This document shows, piece after piece, positions 33,822-57,439 of a stretch of DNA of 64,000 nt. Under the pieces are notes generated by a model. That model was not told where the DNA came from. It made no database searches and worked only from the letters and a program-made list of their open reading frames with translations. The stretch is from NCBI GenBank assembly GCA_005502445.1, contig SCPB01000006.1, positions 1-64,000 on the forward strand. The letters are read 5' to 3'. The translations under genes were made by a program, and so were the position numbers. Source of the DNA: Microbacteriaceae bacterium X2B (GTDB lineage Bacteria; Actinomycetota; Actinomycetes; Actinomycetales; Microbacteriaceae). Positions within the stretch are counted from its first letter, which is position 1. Every line of letters starts with the position of its first letter.

Positions 33822-34498
33822 TGGCCGGCCCGCTGAGCCTCTACGTGCCGGGAACGAGCCCCCTGCATCGCCTCCCGGCCTCGGTGAAGCTGCTCGGTCT
33901 GCTGATCGGCGGACTCGTCATCACCGTGCCGCGACCGGAGCCCCTGCTGCTGGGCGTCGCGGCCGCCGTGCTGGTCGCGCTCTACCTCGTCGCCGGGCTC
34001 GGTCTCACCGAACTCGCGCGCCAGGTCTGGGCTGTCCGCTGGATCATCGTGGTCGTCCTCGTGGGCCAGCTCCTCTTCCTGCCCTGGCACGTCGCCGCCC
34101 TCACGAGCATTCGCATGCTCCTCGCCATCCTCCTCGCGGCGCTCGTCACGCTGACGACGCGGGCGAGCGACATCCTCGAGGCGATCGAGCGCGGGCTCGG
34201 GCCGCTGCGCCGGCTCGGCGTCAGGACCGAGAGGATCGCGCTCGTGCTGGGCATGGCGATCCGCGCCGTGCCCATCGTCATCGATCTCGCCTCGGAGGCG
34301 CGGGATTCCCAGCGCGCCCGCGGCGTCGGCGGCGGCCCCACGGCGATGGTCGTGCCGCTGCTCGTGGGAGCCCTGCGCCACGCCGACGATGTGGCCGATG
34401 CTCTGGCCGCCCGGGGGATGGACGACGATGAGGAGCCGGTTATGCTGGAGGGCTCCGAGCGCTTGCGCGGAGCATCCCGACGCCCGCCACGGAGGTGA
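33821..34498 (+). CDS. bioN: ECF transporter transmembrane subunit BioN
   Basis: T component of the biotin ECF transporter, 225 residues from ATG 33821. It has four or five TM segments (about 20-60, 65-110) and the two cytoplasmic Ala-Arg-Gly-type coupling motifs, SQRARGV and DALAARGMDD, that contact the ATPase. With bioY and bioM this completes a BioMNY system. It ends 3 bases before the smpB start. Confidence 0.9.
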   Translation: MAGPLSLYVPGTSPLHRLPASVKLLGLLIGGLVITVPRPEPLLLGVAAAVLVALYLVAGLGLTELARQVWAVRWIIVVVLVGQLLFLPWHVAALTSIRMLLAILLAALVTLTTRASDILEAIERGLGPLRRLGVRTERIALVLGMAIRAVPIVIDLASEARDSQRARGVGGGPTAMVVPLLVGALRHADDVADALAARGMDDDEEPVMLEGSERLRGASRRPPRR

Positions 34499-42158: not shown

Positions 42159-43640
42159 TCACCCGCCCGTCGTGAGCTCGCCGCGCGACCGCTCGGGCGA
42201 GTGCAGGCGGCTCAGGATGCGATCGGCGCTGACGGGCGTGCGGCGGTCGACGAGCGAGACGATGACGCTCGTGAGGGTCGCGAACGAGATCGTCCAGAGG
42301 CCGGGCTGCGCGAGCAGAGTCGGCAGCGGGCCCGTGCCCGGGCCGAGCGCAGCCGACCCGATGAGGGCCGCGGTGCACAGACCAGCGCCCACGATCATGC
42401 CCGCGATCGCGCCGCGTGCGGTGAGGCGGCGCCACCAGATGCCGAGCAGGATGACCGGCGAGAGCGCGGAGGCCGCGAACACGAAGACCGTGCCGACCGA
42501 GGCCACGAGGCCCTGCGGTGCCGTCGCGAGGGCCACGACGAGCGGCACGAGCGTGCAGAACACGGCCGCCCACCGGAAGGAGGTGACCGTGCCGTGGAAG
42601 AGATCCTGGCTGACGGCGCTCGAGAGCGAGACGACCAGCCCGGAGGACGTGCCGAGGAAGGCGGCGAGGGCGCCCGCGACGACGAGCGCCGTGAGCAGGT
42701 CGCCGGGCGGCCCGGGGATGAGTCGCGACGGCAGCTGGAGCGCCACCGTATCGGCGACACCAGGGGCCGCGAGATCGGGCGCTGCGATGCGCGCGATGAG
42801 CCCAATCGTGCTCGAGGCGATGTAGAAGGCGCTGATGAGCACGATCACGCCGACGGTCGTCCAGCGCGCCGAGCCGCCCGTCGGGCTCGTGTAGAACCGC
42901 ACGAGCACGTGGGGCAGCCCCGCCGTGCCCATCAGCAGCGCGATGAGCAGCGAGGTCGTCGCGTAGGTGTCGAGGCCGGCCGGACCGAGATCCTGCGGGA
43001 AGACGAGCGCCGGATCGATCTCGGGCTCGCTGCCGCGGAGCGTGATCGTGAAGAAGATCGCGGGCACGGCGAGCGCGGCGAGCTTCAGCCAGAACAGGAA
43101 GGCCTGCACGAAGGTGATCGAGCGCATTCCGCCGGCGGCGACGGATCCGCCGACGACGAGCGCGACCGTCGTCGCGCCGACCCAGGGCGGGATGTCCGCG
43201 ATGACGGTGAGCGCGAGCGACGCCCCGTGCAGCTGGGGCACGATGTACAGCCAGCCGATGATGAGCACGAGCGCGCTCGTCAGGCGCCGCGCGGTGAGCG
43301 AGTCGAGTCGGGCGTGGATGAAGTCGGGGATCGTGTACGCGCCGCTGCGTCGGAGCGGCGCGGCGACGAGCATCAGCACGAGCAGGTATCCCGCGGCGTA
43401 GCCGATCGGGAACCAGAACGCGTCGGAGCCGGACAGCAGGACGAGCCCCGAGAGCCCGAGGAAGGTCCCGGCGGAGAGGTACTCGCCGCTGATCGCGGAG
43501 GCGTTCCAGACCGGCCGCACGGTGCGGGAGGCGACGAAGAAGTCTCCGGTGGTGCGCGAGATGCGAAGACCCCAGATGCCGATGATGGCGGTCACGACGA
43601 CGACCGCGACGATCGCCCCGATCGAGAGCGCCGCGCTCAC
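42159..43640 (-). CDS. Sodium:solute symporter (SSF family, acetate/monocarboxylate type)
   Basis: A 493-residue, roughly 13-TM symporter of the SSF family, nearest in layout to cation/acetate symporter ActP. Segments NASAISGEYLSAGTFLGLSG (TM2), YTIPDFIHARLDSLTARRL and GTAGLPHVLVRFYT (the sodium/substrate region) are recognisable. It starts at GTG 43640 and lies 13 bases behind a small DUF485-like subunit gene, the usual partner of ActP. It is the last gene of the cstA operon. Acetate, pyruvate or a similar acid is the likely substrate. Confidence 0.88.
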   Translation of the reverse strand: MSAALSIGAIVAVVVVTAIIGIWGLRISRTTGDFFVASRTVRPVWNASAISGEYLSAGTFLGLSGLVLLSGSDAFWFPIGYAAGYLLVLMLVAAPLRRSGAYTIPDFIHARLDSLTARRLTSALVLIIGWLYIVPQLHGASLALTVIADIPPWVGATTVALVVGGSVAAGGMRSITFVQAFLFWLKLAALAVPAIFFTITLRGSEPEIDPALVFPQDLGPAGLDTYATTSLLIALLMGTAGLPHVLVRFYTSPTGGSARWTTVGVIVLISAFYIASSTIGLIARIAAPDLAAPGVADTVALQLPSRLIPGPPGDLLTALVVAGALAAFLGTSSGLVVSLSSAVSQDLFHGTVTSFRWAAVFCTLVPLVVALATAPQGLVASVGTVFVFAASALSPVILLGIWWRRLTARGAIAGMIVGAGLCTAALIGSAALGPGTGPLPTLLAQPGLWTISFATLTSVIVSLVDRRTPVSADRILSRLHSPERSRGELTTGG

Positions 43641-54600: not shown

Positions 54601-55308
54601 ATGACGATCGCCGTCCTCGAGCGGGCAGGCACCGCATCCGCCGCCGGCGTCGACGACGCGATCGCCGACGGGCTCGCCGAGACGCCGGTCGTAGACTCGC
54701 TCACGATGACTGACGAGCTCGCCGAACGCCGCCGGCTGTTCCAGGAGCAGGCGCTCCCGTACATGGACCAGCTCTACGGCGCCGCCATGCGCATGACCAA
54801 GAACCCCGCCGACGCCGCCGACCTCGTGCAGGAGACCTTCGTGAAGGCCTTCGCCGCCTTCGCCCAGTTCGAGCAGGGCACGAACCTCAAGGCGTGGCTG
54901 TACCGCATCCTGACGAACACGTTCATCAACGTGTACCGCAAGAAGCAGCGCGACCCGTACCAGGGCTCCACCGACGAGCTCGAGGAGTGGCAGCTCGGCA
55001 ACGCCGAGTCGGCCACGTCGAGCTCGAGCCGCTCGGCCGAGGCCGAGGCGATCGATCGGATGCCCGCGAGCGCCGTGAAGGACGCGCTCCAGTCGATCCC
55101 GGAGGACTTCCGTCTCGCCGTCTACTTCGCCGACGTCGAAGGGTTCTCGTACCAGGAGATCGCCGACATCATGAAGACACCCGTCGGCACCGTCATGAGC
55201 CGACTCCACCGCGGCAGACGTCTGCTGCGCGACCTGCTCGCCGACTACGCCCGCGAGCGCGGGATCACGCTGAAAGAGACCACCACCACCTCGAGGAGAA
55301 CGACATGA
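54601..55308 (+). CDS. sigR: ECF sigma factor of the SigR/SigH (redox stress) type
   Basis: Alternative sigma factor for thiol-oxidative and heat stress. The 235-residue form has region 2 ([40 protein letters not shown]) and region 4 ([34 protein letters not shown]). ATG 54601 has GGAGGG; an internal ATG at 54706 would give a 200-residue form closer to the usual family start, and TAGACT lies eight bases before it. Streptomyces makes long and short SigR in a similar way. rsrA overlaps by four bases. Confidence 0.92.
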
Positions 55309-55547
55309 CCGACTGCGGCTGCGACACGGCCAAGGCGGAGCTCGAGGAGTTCCTGCACAACGAGCTCAGCGCCGAGCAGTGTGAGGACATCCGCGAGCAC
55401 ATGGCCAACTGCGACGACTGCTCGGCCGAGCACCTCGTCGGCCTCACGCTGACCACGAAGGTCAAGGAGGCCTGCCAGGAGAAGGCGCCCGACGAGCTGC
55501 GGGCGATGATCCTCGGCACGATCGAGAAGCTCGACGCGGTCCGCTGA
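55305..55547 (+). CDS. rsrA: Zinc-binding anti-sigma factor, RsrA-like (ZAS family)
   Basis: An 80-residue redox-sensitive anti-sigma factor. The ZAS motif is H32-x3-C36-x2-C39 ([14 protein letters not shown]), with Cys4 and Cys6 near the N-terminus ([10 protein letters not shown]) giving the remaining zinc/disulfide cysteine. Oxidation to a disulfide should release SigR. The ATG overlaps the sigma stop; GAGGAG is upstream. Confidence 0.92.
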
Positions 55548-55603: not shown

Positions 55604-55634
55604 CCGTACCCCCGGAGCGACCTCGGGCGATAGC
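55604..55634 (+). promoter_or_regulatory. Conserved promoter-like block A upstream of the first acidic-tail protein
   Basis: CCGTACC (55604-55610), exactly 15 bases, GGCGATAGC (55626-55634). An identical pair with the same 15-base spacing precedes the second paralogue (56610-56640), and the sequences after both are also alike (GGCAAGTGAGGTGA here; AGTGAGTGAGATGA there). A shared alternative sigma factor or activator is the simplest explanation. Confidence 0.6.
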
Positions 55635-55813
55635 GGCAAGTGAGGTGAGTGAACACACTCACGAGACGGTGGGGCGACCTCTTGGTCGCGCCGTCTGCTC
55701 GACCGAGTCCTTCCGAGGATCCGGAACCTCGACGGCAGCCGGGGGGCCGCCGAATCACACAGCCGATGGGGATCTGCACCAGCAGCCCGTCGCCGAGCAA
55801 TGGGGAGTATCGA

Positions 55814-56365
55814 ATGTTTGCATGGATCGCAGGACTGGGACTGCTCACGAAGCTGTCTCTGGGTGCCGGTGTCGTCGCGGTGGGAATCACGGGCGTCGGT
55901 GTGGCCGGCGCAGCCCAGGTGCTGCCGGGCGAGGCGCAGGTCGTCTTCGACGACATCGTCGCGAGCGTGGTTCCGGCCGCCGATAGCGACGAGGAGGCGG
56001 AGGACGCCCTCATCGACGACGAGGAGTCGGGCCGCGCTGAGGAGGACGCCAACCGCGAGGCCGACGAGGAGTCGGGCCGCGCTGAGGAGGACGCCAACCG
56101 CGAGGCCGACGAGGAGTCGGGTCGCGCTCAGGAGGACGCCAACCGCGAGGACGGCGACGCTGAGCAGGGGACCGAGGGCGAGCAGCAGGTAGGCGAGCAG
56201 CAGGTAGGCGAGCAGCAGAGCGAGAGCGTCCAGGGCGAGCAGAACGTCGGTTCCGAGACCGACGGCGCTGCCGAGACGGGTTCTGGATCGGGCTCGGGTT
56301 CGGGATCGGGCGCGGGCGGTTCCGAGACCGCCGAGCAGACCGACACGACCTCCGGCGGTCGCTGA
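55814..56365 (+). CDS. Membrane-anchored protein with long acidic repeat tail (paralogue 1)
   Basis: A 183-residue protein: one TM segment (about 5-35, GLGLLTKLSLGAGVVAVGIT), then FDDIVASVVP and a low-complexity acidic tail of Glu/Asp/Gln/Gly/Ser, including three copies of a 15-residue repeat DEESGRAEEDANREA and a run of GSGS. The start ATG 55814 has GGGGAG eight bases upstream; an in-frame GTG at 55649 is possible but the sequence between has low GC3. The TM core (GLGLLxxxxxGxGxxAxGIT) resembles the second paralogue. Family unknown; likely cell-surface or cytoplasmic adaptor depending on topology. Confidence 0.7.
   Translation: MFAWIAGLGLLTKLSLGAGVVAVGITGVGVAGAAQVLPGEAQVVFDDIVASVVPAADSDEEAEDALIDDEESGRAEEDANREADEESGRAEEDANREADEESGRAQEDANREDGDAEQGTEGEQQVGEQQVGEQQSESVQGEQNVGSETDGAAETGSGSGSGSGSGAGGSETAEQTDTTSGGR
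56018..56152 (+). repeat. 45-base tandem repeat (three copies) in the first acidic-tail gene
   Basis: Three near-identical 45-base units start at GACGAGGAGTCGGG (56018) and encode DEESGRAEEDANREA. The third unit diverges (GCTCAG, then GAGGAC). A short 15-base repeat (GAGCAGCAGGTAGGC) follows. Unit number may vary between strains. Confidence 0.85.
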
Positions 56366-56416
56366 GGCGCGGTCCAATCTCTGAGCTCGAACAACGGCGT
56401 TCATTCAGCGCCGTCG

Positions 56417-56455
56417 GACGGCCCCTCTCGAACACCGAGTTCGAGAGGGGCCGTC
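56417..56455 (+). terminator. Strong hairpin terminator after the first acidic-tail gene
   Basis: GACGGCCCCTCTCGAA (56417-56432), a 7-base loop, and the exact complement TTCGAGAGGGGCCGTC (56440-56455). Sixteen perfect base pairs, 52 bases after the stop. No U-run. Confidence 0.8.
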
Positions 56456-56609
56456 TGCTGTGCGCGGTGGAACCTCCCCGTCGCCGACTCCGCACTGTGG
56501 AGCCCGGGAACCGACCATCCAGTGCCGAGGTGCTGTCTCAGCGACCGGACGCCGTTGAAGCGCTGCAGCGTCGCGCGCTCGAGAATTCCAGAAGGAGGAT
56601 CGCCCCCGC

Positions 56610-56640
56610 CCGTACCTCTGCGCACGCGGCTGGCGATAGC
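56610..56640 (+). promoter_or_regulatory. Conserved promoter-like block B upstream of the second acidic-tail protein
   Basis: CCGTACC (56610-56616), 15 bases, GGCGATAGC (56632-56640), followed by AGTGAGTGAG and the ATG at 56651. Same spacing as block A. Transcription would start at or just before the ATG. Confidence 0.6.
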
Positions 56641-56650
56641 AGTGAGTGAG

Positions 56651-57439
56651 ATGAAGAACCGGATCACCGATCATGAGGCCGAGCTGTTGCTGGCCGGGAG
56701 GACCCCCGCGGGTCGCCCGGACTTCGGCGAGCTCGCAGCGTCGGTGGCGTCCTTCCGGTCCGCCGCTCTCGAGGCGGCTCCCCGGCCCTCGGCGGCGTTG
56801 ACCGCGCGGCTCGGATTGCCGCCGCAGGAGGTGCTCTCGGCGTTGGCGACGTCAAGCGACGCGTCGTCGGGACGTCTGGGAGCGGGGCCGCCTGCCGATG
56901 TCATCGCTGCCCGTGGGTCGCGAAGCGGAGTTGTGCGGCGGGCGGTCGAACGGGTCTCAGGTCTCGGCTTGACCGCCAGGATCGCGGCTGGGGTGGGCGC
57001 TCTCGCACTTGGAATCACGGTCACCGGTGTGGCGGGCGCTCTGCCCGGTGGCATGCAGGACGCGTTCGACGAACTCGTGTCGACCGTGATCTGGATCCGT
57101 GGCGATGTCGACGCGGTGGTCGTCGACGAGCCGCCGCTTGAGGAGCCCGCCGACGACGAGCGGGGACCCGCTGGCCCCACTCCGGCTGGCGAGGGGCGCG
57201 ATGCCGGATCCTCTTCCACGGACGATTCGGTCCCTGACGAGGCGGATACCGCGTCAGAGATCGAGAACCCCGTCGAGGCGCCGGGGTCGGGCGCGGGAGC
57301 GGGCGCCACCGATTCGGGCACGGAGTCGGGATCCGGTTCGGGGACGACGCGCTCCGGGGCGGAGAAGCCCAGCTCGGGCACGCAGCCGCAGCCCCACGTC
57401 GGGGCCGATGATTCGTCCGGCGACTACGGCGGTCGGTGA
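56651..57439 (+). CDS. Membrane-anchored protein with anti-sigma-like N-terminus and acidic tail (paralogue 2)
   Basis: A 262-residue protein starting MKNRITDHEAELLLAGRTP, a cytoplasmic region of about 110 residues (FGELAASVASFRSAALEAAP, PRPSAALTARLGL), one TM segment (about 112-136, GLTARIAAGVGALALGITVTG) and a long Pro/Glu/Ser/Gly-rich tail. The cytoplasmic-TM-extracellular order is like membrane anti-sigma factors, but no zinc motif is visible. It shares the TM core and the promoter block with paralogue 1. Function unknown. Confidence 0.7.
   Translation: MKNRITDHEAELLLAGRTPAGRPDFGELAASVASFRSAALEAAPRPSAALTARLGLPPQEVLSALATSSDASSGRLGAGPPADVIAARGSRSGVVRRAVERVSGLGLTARIAAGVGALALGITVTGVAGALPGGMQDAFDELVSTVIWIRGDVDAVVVDEPPLEEPADDERGPAGPTPAGEGRDAGSSSTDDSVPDEADTASEIENPVEAPGSGAGAGATDSGTESGSGSGTTRSGAEKPSSGTQPQPHVGADDSSGDYGGR

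Follow-up and report, generated by a model that had tools for sequence, protein, structure and literature searches.

Background

Among described systems, those closest to the locus studied here are the SigD-RsdA pair of Corynebacterium and Mycobacteriales and the sigma factor ShbA of Streptomyces. In the sections of the C. glutamicum report drawn on here (PMC6338062), SigD promoters consist of GTAAC(A/G) and GAT elements, the rsdA promoter GTAAC-15nt-CTCGAT recurs in 37 of 38 species, 11 genes, several of them of the envelope, are confirmed as SigD-dependent, and bases are recognized by Ala60, Ala166 and Val169 in SigD as against Lys53, Thr168 and Ser171 in SigH. RsdA of C. glutamicum binds its sigma factor and is cleaved by MarP and then by Rip1, as stated in an excerpt of PMC11175481. 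For ShbA only two targets, hrdB and shbA, are described in vitro, and the SigR consensus is GGAAT-N18-19-GTT, both according to part of PMC9205884.

Here we analyse a window of 64,000 nucleotides (64 kb) from a member of the Microbacteriaceae, in which two adjacent genes, hereafter type 1 and type 2, are each preceded by the bipartite block CCGTACC-N15-GGCGATAGC. We propose, with a probability of about 0.8, that the block serves as promoter for a dedicated ECF sigma factor encoded on another contig (C16) of the same assembly, and that the window holds two targets of that sigma factor in a duplicated type 1 - sigma - type 2 cassette, the sigma gene of which would have been deleted down to its last 126 bases.

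The window cassette and its paralogues

In the type-1 protein a single hydrophobic segment starts near residue 14 and the tail of 149 residues carries a net charge of -38; the type-2 protein has some 110 residues ahead of its hydrophobic segment, and a 131-residue tail with a net charge of -22, which agrees with their original description as two paralogous TM proteins with acidic tails. The start of type 1 (Table 1) was inferred from paralogues on C16, on contig C90 of the same assembly and in Pseudolysinimonas; a longer frame from a GTG at 55649 is open as well. Its tail carries EESGRA(Q/E)EDANR repeats at 56021-56146, of which SGRAQE(D/E)xYR is kept in the C90 and C16 paralogues, and DEESGRA(Q/E)ED repeats are found in the sister proteins that lack the anti-sigma domain. 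A fourth type-1-like gene of the genome (L238, G000:C34:107262-107489; MFSWFVGLG..., acidic AEDEAERLAD repeats) has no promoter block. The leader of type 1 (55635-55813) gave no convincing match to an Rfam family, and the fold of its stretch 55720-55783 is no more stable than that of shuffled sequences (z 0.25). The hairpin 3' of type 1 is possibly a terminator, though it is without a T run.

Table 1. Features of the window cassette and of related loci (window coordinates unless a contig or locus is given)
Feature	Position	Strand	Remarks
SigR/SigH-type ECF sigma gene	54601..55308	+	TIGR02947 308 bits (cut-off 251.55); start not fixed
RsrA-like zinc-finger anti-sigma gene (zf-HC2)	55305..55547	+	PF13490 30.3 bits (cut-off 22.2)
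Putative promoter 1, CCGTACC-N15-GGCGATAGC, core GTACC-N17-CGAT	55604..55634	+	before type-1 gene; exact match
Type-1 leader	55635..55813	+	promoter 1 and first leader bases (~46) align with C90 type-2 promoter/start region
Type-1 gene, 183 aa	55814..56365	+	TM segment and acidic repetitive tail, without anti-sigma domain
Hairpin GACGGCCCCTCTCGAA...TTCGAGAGGGGCCGTC	56417..56455	+	3' of type 1; also in C16 and C90 copies
Relic of ECF sigma gene, last 126 bases including stop codon	56524..56649	+	77% identity to C16, blastn E 3.6e-22
Putative promoter 2	56610..56640	+	within sigma-gene relic; type-2 ATG 10 bases further on
Type-2 gene, 262 aa	56651..57439	+	anti-sigma-like N-terminus ~residues 1-60, TM ~111-130, acidic tail
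C16 ECF sigma gene	C16:~42221-42880	-	motif at own 3' end, directly before anti-sigma-like gene
c-di-GMP-I-GGC-like RNAs (predicted)	L105:1847-1921; L096:4222-4296; L091:4249-4333; L086:4241-4326		
Fifth such RNA (predicted)	L094:5781-5866		inside the type-2 frame, after the N-terminal domain and ahead of the TM; then GGAGG and internal ATG

The two copies of the block are exact, with the 7- and 9-base parts and the N15 spacing identical as first noticed, and lie 1006 bases apart. When two mismatches or fewer are allowed, the 64 kb hold these 2 matches against 0.03 expected, a number reached by 0 of 100 shuffles, and no third copy was found in the window at that threshold. Throughout the 2.57-Mb assembly five sites have 0-1 mismatch (C16:42227, C90:1119, C90:218 and both window copies), and all five stand ahead of a type-1 or type-2 paralogue; the motif is thus not spread over unrelated sites. 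At up to three mismatches 49 sites were found and 120 for the reversed control, so these looser matches are considered background.

On C16, type 1 (TM and acidic tail) is followed by the ECF sigma gene, whose end overlaps the motif, and then by type 2, the promoter of type 1 falling beyond the contig end. On C90 it is that of the window (motif, type 1, motif, type 2), with type 2 cut by the contig end. Since block 2 of the window lies in a relic of the sigma gene, the window cassette must formerly have held that gene. The window and C16 type-2 proteins are 57% identical, their first 40 residues being nearly alike, with Ka 0.086 and Ks 0.469 for codons 1-60 and Ka 0.16 and Ks 0.458 for 50 codons around the TM segment. 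The orphan type-2 gene of the window is not decaying and its N-terminus is under purifying selection. Type 1 resembles type 2 minus its N-terminal domain, since type 1 starts with MFAWIAGLG and a type-2 protein of Yonghaparkia has an internal MFEWIAGLG, and since the type-1 promoter and leader start on C90 closely match the type-2 start region over 57 columns. Among 26 genomes of the genus no other genome has more than one CGATAGC-ending site, so within this sample the satellite cassettes are peculiar to the genome studied.

The DNA around the two blocks had been said to differ. This holds in general, except that block 2 lies in the sigma-gene relic and the first bases of the type-1 leader align with the type-2 start region, from which we conclude that blocks 1 and 2 are of common ancestry. 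Such ancestry could also mean that the identity of the blocks reflects nothing but a recent duplication without function, an explanation that would account for the position of block 2 in duplicated sigma-gene sequence, for a short stretch at block 1 in which 19 of 21 bases agree with the end of the sigma gene, and for the ~57 bases that the C90 promoters have in common. We find it hardly credible, as core and spacing are kept across families while the spacer has diverged, and sites with 0-1 mismatch are restricted to the type-1/type-2 gene family.

The sigma factor and its putative junction promoter

The C16 sigma gene product scores 35.1 bits with PF04542 and 44.5 bits with PF04545, both above the cut-offs, and thus has sigma-70 regions 2 and 4 of an ECF sigma factor. 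Seven sigma genes of the genome exceed the TIGR02937 cut-off, and only the one on C16 has the motif at its own 3' end, in support of the single dedicated ECF sigma factor that had been suspected.

A profile made from six sigma proteins led to 59 named loci, of which 54 were counted and the distant L108-L112 were left out; in a tree this wide sigma group is not a single clade (4 changes). Junctions were screened from -60 to +90 bases relative to where the sigma match ends. GTA(A/C)C-N17-CGAT, mostly with GTACC, is present at the sigma/anti-sigma junction in 45 of the 54 related actinobacterial loci; one further locus has a spacing of 18, other spacings from 12 to 22 do not occur and eight loci lack the core. 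Neither the reversed pattern nor three control intervals, which some short loci do not contain in full, yielded any core.

Depending on the locus, the core falls within the sigma gene, over its stop codon or beyond it, and each of the three frames is represented (for instance NPYLF in Pseudolysinimonas, SPVPS in Kineosporia and TRTP or similar in most others), so that the DNA and not only the protein is conserved. Least probable of all explanations is therefore that the block is conserved coding sequence for the sigma C-terminus ('TRT...GDS') and not regulatory: many loci do encode TRTP...GDS or similar there, whereas the block DNA appears in all three frames, straddling or past the stop, and precedes type-1 genes that have no sigma read-through (window 55604, C90:1119 and L054). 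Conservation in three frames led us to reject both coding-only conservation and a pure duplication artefact.

The type-2 ATG is found 9-11 bases after CGATAG (L055 has an earlier in-frame ATG), so type-2 transcripts would be leaderless or nearly so, given the presumed start site. A strict pattern derived from the module sites themselves, CGTACCY-N16-CGATWRC, occurs 34 times in 45 genomes selected for having the sigma gene, 32 times at the module and twice elsewhere by coordinates (reversed control 0). With a looser pattern, 16 genomes (the genome studied and 15 of the 45) gave 26 sites against 1 for the reversed control; 19 of the 26 belong to the module and 7 do not. Within the genus sample of 26 genomes, which includes incomplete ones, 16 have the sigma gene and exactly these 16 have a CGATAGC-ending site, against 0 of the 10 others, three of which are 71-82% complete; two of the 10 each contain a single loose match that ends differently. 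The site thus tracks the sigma gene, and the co-occurrence with an ECF sigma factor in related genomes is borne out.

The block might instead be the operator of an activator, the other regulator initially envisaged. This has a very slim chance, given that the block has the -35/-10 core and spacing published for the rsdA promoter (in the part of PMC6338062 cited above), shows no palindrome on visual inspection, is followed at ~9-11 bases by the anti-sigma ATG and is present where the sigma gene is.

Relation to SigD, RsdA and SigR

At the base-contacting positions the C16 sigma factor has Ala, Ala and Ala, and the SigR of the window Lys, Thr and Ser. The alignment of these positions is fixed by the residue interval, 106 in four SigD-type proteins checked and 115 in the window SigR, both of which match the published intervals. 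Among the 53 sigma-group rows caught by the pattern, Ala is found in 52 at the position of SigD Ala166/SigH Thr168 and in 49 at that of SigD Val/SigH Ser. The residue for the -10 element varies within the group, with Ala in 28 of 49 rows, Gly in 9, Thr in 5, Val in 4 and others in the rest; the C16 sigma factor has Ala there and the window SigR Lys.

These residues also bear on the neighbouring SigR, whose gene lies upstream of block 1 with rsrA between them. SigR and RsrA have a redox role. If SigR and not the C16 sigma factor read the block, both genes would belong to the SigR regulon, as their adjacency to its gene might suggest. We give this a slim chance: the CCGTACC-N15-GGCGATAGC blocks do not match the SigR consensus GGAAT-N18-19-GTT (part of PMC9205884), the contact residues of SigR are Lys and Thr/Ser, CGATAGC-ending sites track the C16-type sigma gene (16/16 vs 0/10), and the core stands at the end of that gene in 45 of the 54 loci. 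SigR as regulator was thus rejected on motif, contact residues and co-occurrence. The position next to the SigR operon is as originally reported, and SigR seems to be a neighbour only, probably not a partner.

With the dedicated C16 sigma factor as the preferred reader of the block, we asked how it relates to known families. It scores 91 bits with the SigD/ShbA model NF007230, below the cut-off of 209. At 1e-40 this model has no match in the genome studied; it does find one in 57 of 148 class genomes and in C. glutamicum, which served as control. A tree places the 30 SigD/ShbA rows in one clade on a branch of 4.81 with no row of the C16 group inside, the long branches leaving a sister relation unsure. 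The profile of the C16 group scores 67.9-88.4 bits with the 30 SigD/ShbA proteins and 34.1-38.5 bits with four of the six other sigma factors of the genome, the rest giving no match, so SigD/ShbA is the nearest kind among those compared.

Type-2 proteins match no Pfam or NCBIfam model at cut-off. The sigma-D-binding domain PF16751 was not found at E 10 in the window or C16 type 2, nor in the genome as a whole; it is present in 28 of 246 class genomes, this one not among them. In 39 type-2 proteins (L062, L080, L085 and L088 being left out) hydropathy and composition predict an N-terminal domain, one TM helix and a low-complexity outer tail. Comparison by hhalign of type 2 (34 sequences) with RsdA (15 of 17 loci, without L114 and L120) gave probabilities of 0.8% and 3.2%, with a register that is suggestive and not significant; relative to 40 column-shuffled controls the score was above all in one comparison and below one of the 40 in the other. 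An AF2 model of window type-2 residues 1-155 has helices at 7-14, 23-40, 48-54 and 58-73, with block means of 87-97 over residues 1-40. No PDB structure matched this model, and the type-2 profile had 0 matches at E 10 among PDB sequences. Membership in the SigD/ShbA and RsdA families was accordingly rejected by model (NF007230, PF16751), and since sigma and anti-sigma both fall outside, we regard the module as a new variant of the sigD-rsdA-like system. The open-licence literature has no paper on the C16-type sigma/anti-sigma family among the matches listed. The large ECF classification papers may, we presume, cover the sigma group under a number.

Two observations concern type-2 proteins and modules elsewhere. 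An outer motif, EFSxWV..A.DPxKVGxEFGxxVSEQAR, occurs in 13 of the 39 type-2 tails (between L055 and L099) and is possibly a ligand or protease site; EFSxWV..DPxKVGxEFG is absent from the window and C16 type-2 copies. Another genome of the family, G765, contains a more distant module (L233:1358 onward) with a GTAACC...CGATTAC promoter, a type-1-like gene, an ECF sigma gene and, following it, a TM protein; the locus also has a frame for a sedolisin-like peptidase, the peptidase and anti-sigma assignments there being made by eye.

Type-1 leaders in other actinobacteria

In five loci (L054, L086, L091, L096 and L105) the core precedes a type-1-like gene, ~1.32-1.35 kb upstream of where the sigma match ends; in a sixth, L090, it is at 1.63 kb, before a different, secreted-type protein. 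Between this promoter and the type-1 ATG a c-di-GMP-I-GGC-like RNA is predicted in four Frankiales/Blastococcus loci (Table 1). RF03167 (c-di-GMP-I-GGC) stayed below its Rfam gathering cut-off of 59 with 44.7 bits in L105 (E 2.6e-7) and, in a search of that locus by itself, 31.8 bits in L096 (E 4e-6), and had no match in L086, L091 or L094. A model built from the four RNAs identified a fifth in L094 (58.2 bits, E 5.3e-13); the next best match (E 0.026) was the best of the window, at 33898 and away from the type-1 leader, and 30 further loci gave nothing below E 0.04. In the five sequences 7 of 21 pairs are changed on both sides, a count reached by 2 of 500 shuffles with an alignment that was fitted to the structure and favours it. 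The arrangement in L094 could yield a full-length product and one lacking the anti-sigma domain from a single frame.

No such RNA was found in the window type-1 leader by Rfam, the four-RNA model or folding. RF03167 is present in 48 of 394 class genomes, this one not among them. A general link of RF03167 with the promoter was rejected, the core being placed where expected in only 7 of 30 loci, 0/7 with the promoter. We thus consider the leader RNAs candidate c-di-GMP-I-like riboswitches of some distant actinobacteria and not of the window.

Proposed circuit

That the sigma factor recognizes the block, is bound by type 2, and is freed by proteolysis from a protein with the predicted membrane topology is what we infer from sequence comparison. 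Type 2 has the anti-sigma-like N-terminus that was first noticed, and its position, architecture and presumed autoregulation suggest a putative anti-sigma role. At the parent locus the final codons of the sigma gene would contain a promoter from which the sigma factor transcribes the gene of its own anti-sigma factor, type 2. By analogy with RsdA, type 2 would keep sigma bound at the membrane and release it once the outer part of type 2 is cleaved; sigma thus freed would make more anti-sigma, closing a homeostatic loop. The satellites would supply additional anti-sigma copies with different tails, plus sisters without the anti-sigma domain. The orphan type 2 of the window, as an anti-sigma paralogue, could add negative feedback or a second input, and type 1 could be a surface output, or a competitor for the outer signal or the protease.

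Tentatively, and at slightly less than even chances, we see here an ECF circuit with hardly any high-confidence targets beyond its own membrane anti-sigma and the paralogues of that protein, where one sigma held by several anti-sigmas would form a multi-input sensor array, and where in some other actinobacteria the leader of the sisters without the anti-sigma domain would carry a c-di-GMP-I-like riboswitch. For proteins of Microbacteriaceae and others that escape Pfam and NCBIfam, the analysis would supply a sigma factor, a promoter and an anti-sigma family, and the promoter would be one that is coding sequence at the same time. The genome further provides a natural case of anti-sigma duplication without sigma, by which it becomes testable whether extra copies act as added sensors or as a brake.

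Comparison with known systems

SigR-RsrA resembles the module in pairing an ECF sigma factor with an anti-sigma factor, and differs in its zinc-finger anti-sigma, its GGAAT-N18-19-GTT promoter and its contact residues. With ShbA the C16-type sigma factor shares the small number of targets, and its nearest NCBIfam model (NF007230) bears the ShbA name; ShbA drives the gene of the principal sigma factor, whereas the C16-type sigma would target an anti-sigma gene.

The module can also be set beside SigD-RsdA. The block had been taken to resemble no standard promoter, a view that is not supported, since its core and spacing resemble the Corynebacterium rsdA/SigD promoter: in the relevant part of PMC6338062 the rsdA promoter reads GTAAC-15-CTCGAT, compared with GTACC-15-GGCGAT here at the equivalent position. 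Both systems have an ECF sigma gene followed by the gene of a TM anti-sigma factor (putative here) with an N-terminal domain, a TM segment and a low-complexity tail, and in the alignment the C16 sigma factor has Ala, like SigD, at two of the three base-contacting positions and Ala instead of Val at the third. The idea of a novel surface signalling unit can be narrowed down: the cassette would be a duplicated satellite, and the system to which it belongs is sigD-rsdA-like. This system is set apart from SigD-RsdA by satellite copies without sigma in its own genome and by strict-motif targets that are almost only the anti-sigma gene and its paralogues.
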